From IMG/VR virus record IMGVR_UViG_3300022693_004339, positions 1 through 33,091 of that record: 33,091 bases of DNA; one strand, given 5' to 3'. The notes under the pieces were generated by a model. That model saw only the letters and a program-made list of their open reading frames with translations, ran no database searches and was not told where the DNA came from. The stretch comes from a virus. A program made the translations under genes and the position numbers. This document shows positions 2,948 to 18,204 of the stretch, piece by piece (the stretch's first letter is position 1; the number at the start of each line of letters is the position of its first letter).

Positions 2948-4078
2948 TTATTTTCCTTTCTCTGTTTGGTTTTCTTCGTGTTGCAGGCGGAGTTTGAAGG
3001 CTTCCTGCGCGGCCTTTTTCGTCCGGACGTTGTACACCTCCAGAATTTGGTTGGCGCTACCGAGAGAGTGTCCGGATACGGATGTGATTCTGGTTACTTC
3101 CGCGCCGGCTTCGGCCAGCCGCACGACGGCGGTGTGGCGCAAGTTCTTGAATGTTTTTCCCTTGAGGGTTGGGTGGTGCTTTTGCGCCTGTTCCCTGATG
3201 TCCTGCACGATATGGGTGAAGGTGTATTCGGTGTATGGGCGGCCTTTGCTGTCCTGTATCAATGTGCCGACAAGGCTGTGTTTGCGGTTGCGTTCGATCT
3301 GTGCCGCGATGCGTTCTTTCAGCTGGGGAATTAGATCAACGGGCAGATCAACATTCGCGCCGGTCTTTGACTGGCGGATCTGTATCACGCCGTCGCGATA
3401 ATCTTTGACGGACAGTGATAAAAGGTCCATTTTGCGTTGGCCCATCCATGCGTTTATGAGTACGGCCGTGCCGACACCGAAGTGATCCATTTTGTCAGCT
3501 TGCGCGACGAACGCGGTCACATCGTCTTCGGACCAGATTTCCTGTCGCTTGGCTTTGTACTTTATGCCGGGGTTGGCGGCCGGATTGCTGCCTTTGGGAA
3601 TCCAGTTTTCGCGCTCGGCGTGTGTCATTAGCAAGCGTAATGTGCGAATGATGGTTCCGGCCTTTGCCGGCTTACCGGTGGCCAGTAATTTTTCGTAGAA
3701 AATCTGCACTGATTTGGCTGTGATCGACTTTACCGGTGCGTCGCCTGCCCAGGCTTCGATCGTTTTCCAGTTCAGGCCGTAGAGATACTGCGTTTTCGGG
3801 CTGAGATCGCGCCAGAAGCGGCTGTTCTTATAGTTTGCCCAGAGCGCCGACAATGTGCCGGGGCGTTCGGTGACCGGTGATTTTATAAGGCCGGCGCGCC
3901 ATTCATCAACGGCAGCGTTGATCCGCTGGGCTTCTGCCACGGCATCCGTATAGTTATCGGGTAGCCGTGTCAGTTTCCAGCCGGCGTCAGCGAGTTCTTT
4001 GCTCGGCTGCCAGAAATAGCGTTTTGTGCCGTTTTTTCCGGGACGTTTTGTAAAATATCGGATGGTGAGTTTTGCCAT
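2948..4078 (-). CDS. int: tyrosine integrase (site-specific recombinase)
   Basis: 376 residues, full length for a phage integrase. The N terminus (~1-60) is an arm-type DNA-binding region, residues ~70-165 form the core-binding SAM-like domain, and ~180-360 the catalytic domain. Visible active-site residues are Arg215 (GQRKMDLL), Lys238 (QSKTG), Arg314 (KNLRHT), His337 (SGHS) and the nucleophile Tyr349 (EVYNVR). The usual HxLR histidine is a lysine (K311), a substitution tolerated in several integrase branches. It should insert and, with a partner such as the AlpA-like protein, excise the phage. Unusually it sits mid-operon, with Acb2 abutting it downstream, so it is read with the early genes rather than from its own terminal location. 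Confidence 0.95.
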   Translation of the reverse strand: MAKLTIRYFTKRPGKNGTKRYFWQPSKELADAGWKLTRLPDNYTDAVAEAQRINAAVDEWRAGLIKSPVTERPGTLSALWANYKNSRFWRDLSPKTQYLYGLNWKTIEAWAGDAPVKSITAKSVQIFYEKLLATGKPAKAGTIIRTLRLLMTHAERENWIPKGSNPAANPGIKYKAKRQEIWSEDDVTAFVAQADKMDHFGVGTAVLINAWMGQRKMDLLSLSVKDYRDGVIQIRQSKTGANVDLPVDLIPQLKERIAAQIERNRKHSLVGTLIQDSKGRPYTEYTFTHIVQDIREQAQKHHPTLKGKTFKNLRHTAVVRLAEAGAEVTRITSVSGHSLGSANQILEVYNVRTKKAAQEAFKLRLQHEENQTEKGK

Positions 4079-14086: not shown

Positions 14087-15661
14087 ATGACGCAAAAAAC
14101 AGTAGATGAAATAAAATTTCTGTCTGATGAGGCCTGGCAGATCAAGGATTTGTGGAAGCCGATATTTCAGGAGGCTTACGAGTTGGCAATGCCAACGCGC
14201 AATCCGTATGAAGGAAACAAGAAACAGCCACGATCATTGGCCCGTGCCTATGACAGTACAGCTGTTGATGTTGTTTTTCGCGGCGCGAACCGTCTGATGA
14301 TGGAATTAACGCCGCCGGATCAAAAATGGCACGACGTAAAGCCGGGGCCGCTTCTTAAAATGAATTACGAAAAAGCGGCTTTGGATCAGCTTGATCGGGA
14401 ATTGTCAAAAGTTGTTGATGTTCAATCAATGATTTTTCAATCGGGTAACTTCATTGATGCGATGGGGGAGGTGTACATTGATGCCTATGTGACCGGTCAT
14501 GGCTTTTTGTTGACGTTGGAAAATACAAAGAATCCGGTTAATCCGGTTGCGTTCCAGGCTGTCAGCCAGTCTGAAGTTGCAGTTCTGGAAGGGCCGTTCG
14601 GTGAAGATGATTTCTTTTCCCGGAAGCGGAAAATCAAGGTGCGGATGATTGATCGGTTGTGGGATGATGCTTCTGTGCCGGAAGAGATACGCGCGATGAA
14701 GTCTGACGCGAAAGACCCTGAGATCGAGGTGCTTGAGGTTGTTTACAACGCATCATCCGAAGAAGATGTGTCCTGGCGTTATGAAGTCCTCTGGCTGTCG
14801 GGTGATAAACCGGTTCGCATGGTTGAGCGGAATTATACCAGTAATCCCTGGACGGTGTTCCGTTGGTCAAAGGTTGCCGGTAGTCCCTATGGCCCCGGTC
14901 CGGTCTTGTTGGCGCTTGCTGATATTCGCACAGCGAATACGACAAAAGAAATGATCCTGACAAATGCCGCGCTTGCGTTGGCCGGCATGTATCTGGTGAA
15001 AGATGATGGCACGGTCAATCCGGATAATATCATCATCACCGAGGGCGGGATGATTCCAGTGGCCAGTACGGGCGGCAATATCGGCGCGTCTATTGTGCCG
15101 CTGGAAAGTGGCAGAGGGTTTGATGTGGGGCAGATTGTTCTGGAGGATCTGCGCGATCAAATCCGTAAGATTATGATGGATAATACATTGCCGCCGATGA
15201 CGGGGGCTGTCCGGTCAGCGACAGAAATCATCGAGCGCGTCAGGCAGATGGTTCAGGATTACGGTGGTGCGGCCGGTCGCTTATCAACGGGCTTGGTTAA
15301 TCTGGTGCAGCGTGTCCAGGATATTTTGCGCAAGCTTGGCTTTGTCCCTGCGCTAAAAATCGATCAGTTCAATCTCAAGGTGCAGATCAATTCTCCGATG
15401 GCTCGATCACAACAGCTTCAGGAAGTTGAAAATGTTGTGCGTTGGATTGAGTTATCCCGCGCTGTTGGCGGTGAAGAAATGCTCTTCATGGGGGCCAAGC
15501 TAGAACAGATTATTCCGTGGTTTTCGGACCAGATGGGTGTGCCCGCCGATCTGGTGCGATCGGATACAGAGCGTGATGTTTTGCAGAAAAATGTCGCGCA
15601 ACTGGTTGCTGCGCAACAAATGCAGCAGGCAGAGGGCGGATTAACACAACAGGCAGCATAA
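14087..15661 (+). CDS. portal / head-to-tail connector protein (T7 gp8-type)
   Basis: 524 residues, typical length. The N-terminal half holds RSLARAYDSTAVDVVFRGANRLMMELTPPDQKWHDVKPG, and the centre has FRWSKVAGSPYGPGPVLLALADIRTANTTKEMIL, both hallmarks of the bacteriophage head-to-tail connecting family. It forms the 12-subunit ring through which DNA enters and leaves the head. AGGGGG lies before the ATG. The C-terminal tail is Gln-rich (QMQQAEGGLTQQAA). Confidence 0.93.
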   Translation: MTQKTVDEIKFLSDEAWQIKDLWKPIFQEAYELAMPTRNPYEGNKKQPRSLARAYDSTAVDVVFRGANRLMMELTPPDQKWHDVKPGPLLKMNYEKAALDQLDRELSKVVDVQSMIFQSGNFIDAMGEVYIDAYVTGHGFLLTLENTKNPVNPVAFQAVSQSEVAVLEGPFGEDDFFSRKRKIKVRMIDRLWDDASVPEEIRAMKSDAKDPEIEVLEVVYNASSEEDVSWRYEVLWLSGDKPVRMVERNYTSNPWTVFRWSKVAGSPYGPGPVLLALADIRTANTTKEMILTNAALALAGMYLVKDDGTVNPDNIIITEGGMIPVASTGGNIGASIVPLESGRGFDVGQIVLEDLRDQIRKIMMDNTLPPMTGAVRSATEIIERVRQMVQDYGGAAGRLSTGLVNLVQRVQDILRKLGFVPALKIDQFNLKVQINSPMARSQQLQEVENVVRWIELSRAVGGEEMLFMGAKLEQIIPWFSDQMGVPADLVRSDTERDVLQKNVAQLVAAQQMQQAEGGLTQQAA

Positions 15662-15676
15662 TATAAAGGAGGAAAC

Positions 15677-16105
15677 ATGTCTGATTATGGAATGAAAACC
15701 AGTGGCGGCTTTTTGCCGAAACACCCGCAAGCCGAGGATTTGATGCAGCGTATTCTGCAACAGGATAAGGGGGGGCGCTCTTTCGGTATGACGGATGCAG
15801 CAAACCCTCTGGCCAAAGCGCACCAGAGCACGAAGCAGGATTTGCTCAAGAATTATGTGTCCGTTTTTTCGTCGCCTGCCGGCCGGGCTGTTCTGGAAGA
15901 CTTGCTCAATCAAACCTTGCGGCGTTCGAATGCAGTGAATGCGGGGCAGATGAATATGGAGCAGATCACAGCCTATATGTTGCAGCGGGACGGTCAAAAC
16001 GGTTTGATGAGCTATATTCTTGCGCAATTATCCGAAGGCGAGAATATCGGGAAAGATGCATCTGCGCCTGCAGATGCGGCATCAACGGCACAATCCGAAG
16101 AATAA
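15677..16105 (+). CDS. Bbp19-like phage head protein
   Basis: 142 residues with AAAGGAGG upstream. The core FSSPAGRAVLEDLLNQTLRRSNAVNAGQMN (around residues 63-95) resembles the Bbp19 family named for Bordetella phage BPP-1, where the gene lies in the head module. Polar N terminus; the end is Ala/Asp/Glu-rich. Role unknown in general; position between portal and scaffold fits head assembly. Confidence 0.7.
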   Translation: MSDYGMKTSGGFLPKHPQAEDLMQRILQQDKGGRSFGMTDAANPLAKAHQSTKQDLLKNYVSVFSSPAGRAVLEDLLNQTLRRSNAVNAGQMNMEQITAYMLQRDGQNGLMSYILAQLSEGENIGKDASAPADAASTAQSEE

Positions 16106-16146: not shown

Positions 16147-17046
16147 ATGTCACAAGAAAAAGAAGGGATCGAAGATGTCAATAATGCAGAAACAAACAAT
16201 AACGGATCAGCAAAAGAGCCGGCAGCGAATACAGAAGGCGTTGAGGCAAGCGCAGATAAGCCTGTATCTGGAGCGTCGAACGGCGCGGGCGATGGAGGCG
16301 ATGCTTCACCGTCCGCCGACGGAAATAGCGAGTCTGACGATGCCGTGCAAATATACCGGCCAGATGGTATCGCAGACCATTTGGTGGGCACCACAGATCA
16401 GGACACAATCGACCGGCTTTTGAAAGCATATAAGGGATCGCGTGACGAATTGGCAAAGGGCAAAAATGTGCCGGATGATGCCGACGGTTACACGCTTGAT
16501 GTTCCGGATGATGTCAAAGAAAAGATTTTGCGGCCGGATGAAGATGGCAATGATCCTGTTTTGGCCAAATTCAAAGATATTGCACACAAGCATGGGCTGT
16601 CACAGGAAACGTTTCAGGACGTGATAACGGATTTGTATGCCGGTGTCATGGAGGACGTAGAAGGTGGCGGCGCTGAAAATGCCGAAGCTGACGATGCTGA
16701 CTGGGATTATACGTCATATGGCGGTGCTGAAAAGGCAAAGCCGCTCGTTGATGCTGTCGATGTCTGGCTGAAAGCATCGGTCGATCAAGGGACGCTGACC
16801 GAGCAAGAAGCGCATGAGGCCGCGTTAATGTCGAAGCATGGTGCGGGTCTGTCATTTGTGTTGAAAGCGCGGGAAGCGTTTGGTGAAAAGCCGATCCCGG
16901 TTGATCTTGGCAAGGCCGGTGTTTCTTCCGAGGTGACGGAAGAGCAGGTGAATAAGCGCGTGAAGGATCCGCGGTATTGGCGTGACAAGGATCCTGCTTT
17001 TATCCAGGAAACGACAGAGATGTTTCAACAGCTCTATAAAAAATAA
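16147..17046 (+). CDS. scaffolding protein
   Basis: 299 residues from the ATG at 16147, which has GAAAGGAGCA upstream; an earlier TTG is unlikely. Strongly acidic, with a low-complexity Asn/Ala/Asp/Ser-rich first ~70 residues, then helices. Position directly before the capsid gene, acidity and helix content match podoviral scaffolds that guide prohead assembly and are then removed. No separate protease is seen in the window. Confidence 0.75.
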   Translation: MSQEKEGIEDVNNAETNNNGSAKEPAANTEGVEASADKPVSGASNGAGDGGDASPSADGNSESDDAVQIYRPDGIADHLVGTTDQDTIDRLLKAYKGSRDELAKGKNVPDDADGYTLDVPDDVKEKILRPDEDGNDPVLAKFKDIAHKHGLSQETFQDVITDLYAGVMEDVEGGGAENAEADDADWDYTSYGGAEKAKPLVDAVDVWLKASVDQGTLTEQEAHEAALMSKHGAGLSFVLKAREAFGEKPIPVDLGKAGVSSEVTEEQVNKRVKDPRYWRDKDPAFIQETTEMFQQLYKK

Positions 17047-17092
17047 CTGAAGACGTTGACAGCTAAAAAAAAATATGATTCTGCTTAATATA

Positions 17093-17299
17093 GCAAAGAT
17101 CACTTTTCTGTGATCGATCATATTTGCCGCCCTCATGTTTTTCATGACCGGCACCTTTCCGGAGCAAGGCTTTGCTCCGGCCCCTAGCGGGGTGAATGCC
17201 AGGGAACTGGACCCGATCCAGACGGCACCCGGGCGCTTATCAGAGCGTATCAAGGCCCGTCCATAGGAAAGGCACTCGGCCCGACGCAAGTCGAAACCG
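17093..17299 (+). ncRNA. candidate structured RNA in the leader of the capsid gene
   Basis: A 281-base gap holds a chain of potential hairpins: GCAAA/TTTGC enclosing GATCAC/GTGATC (17093-17127); TCATG/CATGA extended by GCCG/CGGC (17126-17152); a 9-bp CCGGAGCAA/TTGCTCCGG (17159-17180); CCCC/GGGG (17181-17192); TGCC/GGCA enclosing CTGGA/TCCAG (17197-17227); CGGGC/GCCCG enclosing GCT/AGC (17230-17259); CGG/CCG enclosing CGAC-GCAA-GTCG, a GNRA tetraloop (17277-17299). The 9-bp hairpin is not followed by a T-run, so it is not an intrinsic terminator. I do not recognise a known RNA family. Possible roles are mRNA stability, capsid expression control or packaging. Confidence 0.45.
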
Positions 17300-17327
17300 T
17301 TTAACTTTTTATATGGAGGCTCTTGAA

Positions 17328-18158
17328 ATGAGTACTGATATTGATAATGCATTTGTAAAACAATTTGAGCGTGAGGTTCATGAGGCGTTTCAGCGTCAGG
17401 GATCGAAATTGCGCAACACTGTCCGCAACGTGAATAACGTCAACGGGGCATCAACAACATTCCAAAAAGTGGGTAAAGGAAAAGCGTCAACAAAATCAAC
17501 GCACGGTATCGTGCCTGTCATGAATCTGGGGCATAGTACTGTCGAGTGTGTTTTGAAGGATTATTATGCCGGTGATTGGGTTGATAAGCTGGATGAGCTG
17601 AAGATCAATCATGACGAGCGGCAAGTGATCGCGAATGCCGGTGGGTATGCGCTCGGCCGTACATCAGACGAGTTGATTATTACGGCGATGCAGGACACAT
17701 CGACGACGATTGCGGATGGTAATGCCGGTATGACGCTGGATAAGGTCATGGAGGCGTTTCAAAGGCTGGGGAATAATGATGTTCCTGAAGACGGTGAACG
17801 TTACGCGGTAGTCGGCTGGAAACAATGGGCCGAGCTTCTGCAGATTAATGAGTTTGTCGATGCCGATTATGTTGGTGCGGATGCCTTGCCATTCAATGCT
17901 ATGACGCAGGCAAAGCGTTGGCTCGGCACGCTTTGGATGCCGCATTCCGGTCTGCCGAAAGATGGTGACGATATCCGTTCCTGTTTCTGGTATCACAAAA
18001 CGTCTGTTGGCCATGCCAGCGGTTCGGATGTTCAATCCGACATTTCATGGCACGGCGACCGGGCAGCACATTTCGTGAATAACATGATGAGCCAGGGCGC
18101 GGCATTGATCGATGCCAGCGGTATCATCGAAATCAAGTGCGACGAAACACCTGATTAA
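17328..18158 (+). CDS. major capsid protein
   Basis: 276 residues. The ATG at 17328 has GGAGG 8 bases upstream; the frame stays open to 17196 but that part is arginine-rich and lies in the structured leader. Features such as RNTVRNVNNVNGASTTFQKVGKGKAS and LKDYYAGDWVDKLDELKINHDERQVIANAGGYALGRTSDELII match the phage capsid family of BPP-1-like podoviruses, thought to have an HK97-type fold. It forms the head shell. A strong terminator after the gene and the structured leader before it suggest special control of its dosage. Confidence 0.85.
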   Translation: MSTDIDNAFVKQFEREVHEAFQRQGSKLRNTVRNVNNVNGASTTFQKVGKGKASTKSTHGIVPVMNLGHSTVECVLKDYYAGDWVDKLDELKINHDERQVIANAGGYALGRTSDELIITAMQDTSTTIADGNAGMTLDKVMEAFQRLGNNDVPEDGERYAVVGWKQWAELLQINEFVDADYVGADALPFNAMTQAKRWLGTLWMPHSGLPKDGDDIRSCFWYHKTSVGHASGSDVQSDISWHGDRAAHFVNNMMSQGAALIDASGIIEIKCDETPD

Positions 18159-18178
18159 TAGTTTTACCTCCTGAACTT

Positions 18179-18204
18179 TGCGGCCTCCGGGCCGCAGGTT
18201 TTTT
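18179..18204 (+). terminator. Rho-independent terminator after the capsid gene
   Basis: TGCGGCC (18179-18185), loop TCCG and GGCCGCA (18190-18196) form a 7-bp GC-rich stem followed by GG and six T (18199-18204). It lies 20 bases after the capsid stop codon. Likely partial read-through supplies the tail genes. Confidence 0.85.

Follow-up and report, generated by a model that had tools for sequence, protein, structure and literature searches.

The leader of the major capsid gene in a 33,091-base virus record, the whole of which is referred to here as the window, belongs to a family of structured RNAs that we term class I. We consider it likely that this RNA is a pseudoknotted capsid leader of a new family, in which the Shine-Dalgarno sequence (SD) is closed by default, three sites accept one trans-acting factor, and switching sets the capsid output. 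The class I RNA thereby probably controls the amount of shell protein.

The window encodes a T7-like head module on the plus strand (Table 1), and its integrase-like gene, assigned to PF00589, suggests that the phage is temperate. The original prediction placed a candidate structured RNA in a large gap of the virion operon just before the capsid gene. The gap is real: it extends over 281 nt (17047-17327), from the scaffold stop codon (17044-17046) to the capsid ATG at 17328, is the largest of the operon and holds no plausible gene. An N-terminal capsid extension from 17196 was ruled out, as in-frame stops lie 3-210 nt upstream of the start codon in the members, and no open extension upstream of the start is common to class I. 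In close relatives of the phage, a PilZ-domain gene (PF07238, above cutoff) sits on the opposite strand between the scaffold gene and the capsid leader, and other marine relatives have this slot occupied likewise.

Table 1. Genes, signals and RNA elements at the capsid locus; coordinates are those of the window unless a locus name is given, and loops are in square brackets.
Feature	Coordinates	Strand	Details
Integrase-like gene	2948-4078		PF00589
Portal/head-tail connector	14087-15661	+	PF12236
Bbp19-like protein	15677-16105	+	
Scaffold/capsid assembly gene	16147-17046	+	PF05396
TTGACA, -35-like element	17056-17061	+	beside scaffold stop; TTGAC in 11/11
5' hairpin region	17070-17125	+	AAAUAUGAU...AUCAUAUUU with inner GAUCAC/GUGAUC; minimum-energy fold
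P0	17126-17152	+	GCCG 17126-17129/CGGC 17149-17152, around motif copy 1; strings in all 11
Motif copy 1	17130-17133	+	CCCU, in P0; M = C17132
P1	17159-17180	+	9-bp GC-rich stem of CCGGAGCAA and UUGCUCCGG, loop GGCU; sequence, fold
P2 position	17181-17200	+	hairpin CCCC[UAGC]GGGG; replaces P2 of 10 relatives
GGG, 5' strand of proposed pseudoknot	17202-17204	+	with CCC 17280-17282; GAG/CUC in L333, L334
Conserved UGGACCCG	17208-17215	+	alignment
P3	17221-17261	+	GACGG 17221-17225/CCGUC 17257-17261; motif copy 2 and variable hairpin within
Motif copy 2	17226-17229	+	CACC, in P3; M = C17228
P4	17260-17317	+	anti-SD UCCAUA 17260-17265/UAUGGA 17312-17317; sequesters SD (predicted)
P5, motif copy 3, P6, P7	17269-17308	+	P5 AAGG/CUUU; P6 CGG 17277-17279/CCG 17297-17299; P7 CGAC[GCAA]GUCG 17282-17293
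Motif copy 3	17273-17276	+	CACU, in P5/P6 loop; M = C17275
Shine-Dalgarno GGAGG of capsid gene	17315-17319	+	sequence
Major capsid gene	17328-18158	+	PF19821, phrog_3437
Terminator-like hairpin with T-run	18177-18198	+	after capsid gene; scan
Inserted PilZ gene	L007:2378-2839	-	PF07238
Inserted PilZ gene	L006:3884-4303	-	PF07238

The plus strand of the gap folds with a minimum free energy of -102.5 kcal/mol, compared to -78.5 ± 5.0 kcal/mol for 200 dinucleotide shuffles, none of which was as low (z = -4.78). The minus strand is nearly as stable (z = -4.36); folding energy therefore does not identify the strand, which was assigned by orientation and by the homologues. The hairpins noted beforehand, including a 9-bp GC-rich stem without a T-run (P1), nested stems and a GNRA-capped stem (P7), are all present in the window, but several are specific to its sequence. 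The relatives bear hairpins of other sequence at the P1 position and hairpins of unconserved sequence in the 5' region, the GNRA loop of P7 is found in some members only, and P2, which in the relatives is a 4-bp stem with the loop RGCGNNAY, is replaced in the window. On the 3' side of P2, a strand CAGGGA is followed by the conserved GGACCCG and then by P3, whereas P5, P6 and P7 are nested within P4. The stems had also been thought to end short of the ribosome-binding site, which turned out to be wrong, as the capsid GGAGG falls within P4, the final helix. The P1 stem runs into CCCCUAGC with no U-run, which does not fit an intrinsic terminator or attenuator, and a terminator-like match at 17098-17115 in the leader is weak, without a clean U-run.

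Homologues were collected by scanning viral contigs with the capsid protein (80 loci) and with that of L118 (80 more). Most loci from both scans bear other leaders, and a few match the window, by eye, in AAGGCAMTCGGCCCGA near the capsid start. Pattern scans with AAGGCAMTCGGCCCGA and looser strings yielded nine distinct class I leaders (the window, L026, L030, L035, L074, L086, L118, L122 and L190, the last from a Rhodospirillaceae genome contig), from which the covariance model R1 was built. Across 66 sources R1 recovered all nine at 75-109 bits, with a sole other match of 11.5 bits, and it gave no matches on 67 further capsid loci. On whole genomes, R1 detected two non-seed leaders, L333 (70.1 bits) and L334 (61.7 bits), each of which runs up to a capsid homologue's ATG; L333 is probably a chromosomal prophage, since its contig exceeds 1.59 Mb. 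Among 385 alphaproteobacterial genomes, the only R1 match besides G001 was L332 (39.5 bits), a false positive in a transposase-like frame (by eye) with no adjoining capsid gene, and L412 (24.8 bits) was likewise false, falling within a prolyl-tRNA-synthetase-like ORF. Because both are false, true members are taken to be those above about 60 bits; R1 E-values are rough. Class I is known from 11 members. Each of them immediately precedes the capsid gene, in 11 distinct phages or prophages whose capsids are 35-80% identical to each other. The association is consistently with this one gene family, the two weaker R1 matches elsewhere being in other coding frames. Further genome and viral scans added no class I members, and a DNA similarity search in named phages gave no match. 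As predicted, the RNA is of an unrecognised family: at the gathering threshold, Rfam 15 returned nothing for the window or 15 relatives, and at loose E-values the best matches were unconvincing, at 18.7 bits versus 80 required and 19.4 versus 45.

The covariation whose absence would have spoken against a structured RNA is present among these diverse homologues, as expected of a conserved cis-regulatory structure. Plain MAFFT misplaced P3b, P4a and the 3' end, so seeds with the variable loop shortened were used instead. In the resulting nine-seed alignment, 87.6% of the helix cells are paired, compared to 19.8-51.1% after shifting the partner by 1-3 columns; for covariation the alignment scores 0.281 and its shuffles 0.179 ± 0.017. 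In the final alignment of the 11 members, which is hand-made, structure-guided and hence biased towards the structure, 275 of 280 helix cells in P2-P7 and the pseudoknot are paired (shuffle mean 246.5, 0/5000 as high). Ten pairs show double-sided changes (shuffle mean 5.5, 3/5000 as high), spread across P2, P3, P5, P6, P7 and the pseudoknot. With the window set aside, P2 has 38 of 39 cells paired and double-sided changes in 4/4 pairs, whereas P3 has 44/44 cells paired over four pairs, two of them with double-sided changes. CGG/CCG of P6 becomes CGU/ACG in L333 and L334, a G-C pair of P5 becomes A-U in L334, and a C-G pair of P7 becomes U-A, with double-sided changes in three sequences. P0, which stands outside the 275/280 count and whose strings were verified in all 11 members, occurs as UCCG/CGGA, CCCG/CGGG and GCCG/CGGC, with a variable pair of U-A, C-G or G-C. 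P4 is paired in 54 of 55 cells over five pairs; its changes are one-sided, mostly keeping G-U pairs, and double-sided changes are missing here because the SD side cannot vary.

The GGG strand has two possible partners, a nearby ACCC and the distant CCC within UCGGCCCGA. In L333 and L334 the GGG reads GAG and the distant strand reads CUC, whereas the nearby strand is still CCC. We therefore dropped the local hairpin, and these sequence changes favour the predicted pseudoknot; as L333 and L334 are sisters, the support amounts to one event.

The capsid SD is predicted to pair with a conserved CUCCA (UCCAUA in the window) in all members, giving the anti-SD/SD helix of an SD-sequestering translational leader. 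Substitutions in the anti-SD retain pairing, with C to U facing G and A to G facing U; the exception is one G in the window, where P4 is displaced by one position and acquires UA/UA. The calculated probability of an unpaired SD is 0.000-0.037 in 11/11 leaders (0.024 in the window), compared to means of 0.13-0.40 in controls with the upstream sequence shuffled. Median SD accessibility is 0.011 for class I versus 0.300 after shuffling, whereas it stays near the controls in a second type of leader described below, class II (0.305 versus 0.346), and in the remaining capsid leaders (0.307 versus 0.330). The closed SD is therefore a property of the class I RNA and not of capsid leaders generally. 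The conserved UGGACCCG resembles the SD segment AUGGAGC (17313-17319), which makes it possible, from the likeness of the two strings, that it acts as an SD mimic in a bistable switch or that the two are paired CsrA-like GGA sites. By eye, the anti-SD could pair with the UGGA of UGGACCCG in 9/11 members. P3 and P4 overlap by 2-3 bases and could therefore compete.

Each of the internal loops of P0, P3 and P5/P6 carries a C-N-M-Y stretch on its 5' side. Within an RNA, the base M is identical across the three copies in 11/11 members, an extraction checked by script: it is C in seven (the window, L035, L074, L086, L118, L122 and L333) and A in four (L026, L030, L190 and L334). P0 lies outside the model alignment. 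Of the gap-free columns in that alignment, the two holding M, and no others, divide the A set from the C set completely. The chance that two such label sets match is 1 in 330, with the third copy and the tree uncounted. On the capsid tree, A-type members stand apart from each other beside C-type neighbours (L026 beside L035, L334 beside L333), which implies at least four independent switches of M. Watson-Crick pairing fails to explain A going with A or C with C. The in-step variation would be explained by three sites for one trans-acting factor, or alternatively by a three-fold tertiary contact. No position in the 11 capsids separates A-type from C-type members, so the capsid protein gains no support as its own factor.

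Putative transcription signals also accompany the leader. TTGAC occurs upstream of it in 11/11 members, mostly touching or just past the scaffold stop, and it keeps with the leader rather than with the scaffold gene, both in L030, where DNA is inserted, and in the relatives with the minus-strand PilZ insertion, in which a -10-like box follows it by 17 bases. In the window, no canonical -10 follows the TTGACA and a promoter scan did not list the site, so its use as a promoter is put forward here as an inference. Most class I members have a hairpin after the capsid stop. This hairpin and the upstream TTGAC, both read from sequence, suggest that the capsid gene is probably a separate transcription unit. 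Five other capsid loci (L003, L006, L007, L008 and L020) carry a promoter-like TTGACA-N17-TANANT upstream of the capsid gene, with a palindrome AGGAAT-N-ATTCCT within the spacer, resembling an operator through which a regulator might control capsid transcription. L122 and L333 have a common element, CCTAGAGATCGGC...ATAGACCGAAG, 5' of P0 inside a long stem of the GAGGCGG type, which may be an additional domain of this RNA.

From the computed features, namely the conserved structure, its position, the SD sequestration and the modules that vary in step, we infer a switch, a factor, a direction of control and a promoter as follows. The cis-acting RNA of ~210 nt would pair its anti-SD with the capsid SD and keep translation off by default. 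A single trans-acting factor, for which an oligomeric RNA-binding protein encoded by the phage is the most likely candidate, would recognise the modules in P0, P3 and P5/P6. Its binding would shift the balance between the closed form with P4 and an open form, for which the pairing of the anti-SD with the upstream UGGA is a candidate, and so set the capsid output. Of the three roles offered originally, regulation of the capsid level is favoured, because SD pairing is common to all 11 members and is not seen in relatives bearing other leaders, while a role in packaging is unsupported. More tentatively, and on balance we doubt it, the RNA might be a sensor of virion assembly in tailed phages, whose three equivalent protein sites count a free assembly protein, switching capsid translation on or off, with RNA and protein specificity co-switched between A-type and C-type at least four times.

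The third role, protection of the message, corresponds to a passive structured 5' UTR that stabilises or processes an abundant capsid mRNA without translational switching, by RNase III or a 5' stem-loop as for T7 gene 10. In its favour, most members have strong hairpins close to their putative 5' end, and the capsid gene resembles a transcription unit of its own that is followed by a hairpin. The passive reading leaves unexplained the conserved unpaired core, the class-restricted anti-SD/SD pairing and the three in-step motifs, and we regard it as unlikely. Translational riboswitches are typically built with such a pairing beside a pseudoknotted conserved core, and a metabolite or ion would here act on an SD-sequestering expression platform. 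We give this reading a low probability: the RNA is tied to capsid genes in 11/11 cases and never to metabolic genes, three in-step modules are less easily reconciled with a single pocket than with a repeated site for a protein, and no Rfam riboswitch matched even at loose thresholds.

A leader of the CsrA/RsmA type, in which a CsrA dimer would bridge the ANGGA sites in UGGACC and in the SD (AUGGAG), would account for the two GGA-containing sites, one of them over the SD, seen by eye in 9/11 members. It appears very unlikely, as L026 and L086 read UAGACC/CAGACC, the SD copy of GGA is in a helix rather than a loop, and the other GGA would be displayed by the local hairpin, which covariation disfavours relative to the pseudoknot. 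Taken singly, the leaders of several relatives have modest z-scores (-0.2 to -1.6), as might be expected of an ordinary GC-rich fold or functionless terminator remnants. Covariation, specific position and SD pairing contradict such an origin, no T-run follows the GC stem, and we find it scarcely credible.

Leader RNAs that sequester the SD are a known kind, whereas Rfam contains neither this family nor its association with a tailed-phage capsid gene nor the triple module. The open-access literature that was searched yielded no description of class I, and one may exist elsewhere. Autogenous translational leaders, such as those of ribosomal proteins and the T4 gene 32 pseudoknot, share with class I a pseudoknotted 5' leader of an abundant protein's mRNA, whose fold contains or adjoins the ribosome-binding site; class I differs in having no family match, in the three repeated modules and in the absence of a capsid residue that tracks M. 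SD-sequestering riboswitches similarly place a conserved core beside an anti-SD/SD helix, but class I precedes a virion gene and has no counterpart in Rfam 15. The T7 capsid gene, gene 10, has its own promoter and a downstream terminator, and the capsid gene here is similarly flanked by promoter-like and terminator-like elements, next to T7-type scaffold and portal genes. Compared to T7, however, the upstream element is a bacterial-type TTGAC rather than a phage RNA polymerase promoter, and the leader RNA is large and conserved. In tailed phages, promoters, operon order and rates of translation are usually credited with balancing capsid, scaffold and portal. With a conserved folded RNA tied to the capsid gene and the ribosome-binding site locked in it, control of virion stoichiometry at the RNA level can be tested directly, and the in-step A/C copies, which can be swapped singly, in pairs or all three, offer a genetic handle for finding the factor.

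Relatives of the capsid occur in 86 of the 385 alphaproteobacterial genomes (E <= 0.001, most of them strong matches) and the RNA in very few, so the class I leader is much rarer than the capsid. On the capsid tree, class I members are interleaved with other leaders, the window and L118 standing beside L002, which has a different leader; leader and capsid have therefore been exchanged or lost independently. In relatives from Vibrio and Pelagibacter phage isolates, the gaps are about 40-105 bases with no class I match. Class II, a leader of related prophages, was flagged in 38 of 130 leaders, with a detector chance rate of 12 in 1300. It is laid out as an outer stem, AYAACC, an inner hairpin, GGC and the outer stem again, and this stem covaries strongly. 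At least two AYAACC copies are present in 34/38 class II leaders versus 0.4% in shuffles. Examples are L029, L033, L080 and L305, with L271 and L309 seemingly weak matches; those searched in Rfam gave no match. Joining the two classes in one family was rejected, as the class I model gives no match on class II. Class II resembles class I in its place, its capsid family and its repeated motif, but has another sequence and fold and does not sequester the SD. Since capsid relatives are common in alphaproteobacterial prophages and a second unlisted leader RNA stands at the same place in many of them, RNA control at the capsid leader looks to be general in this phage group.
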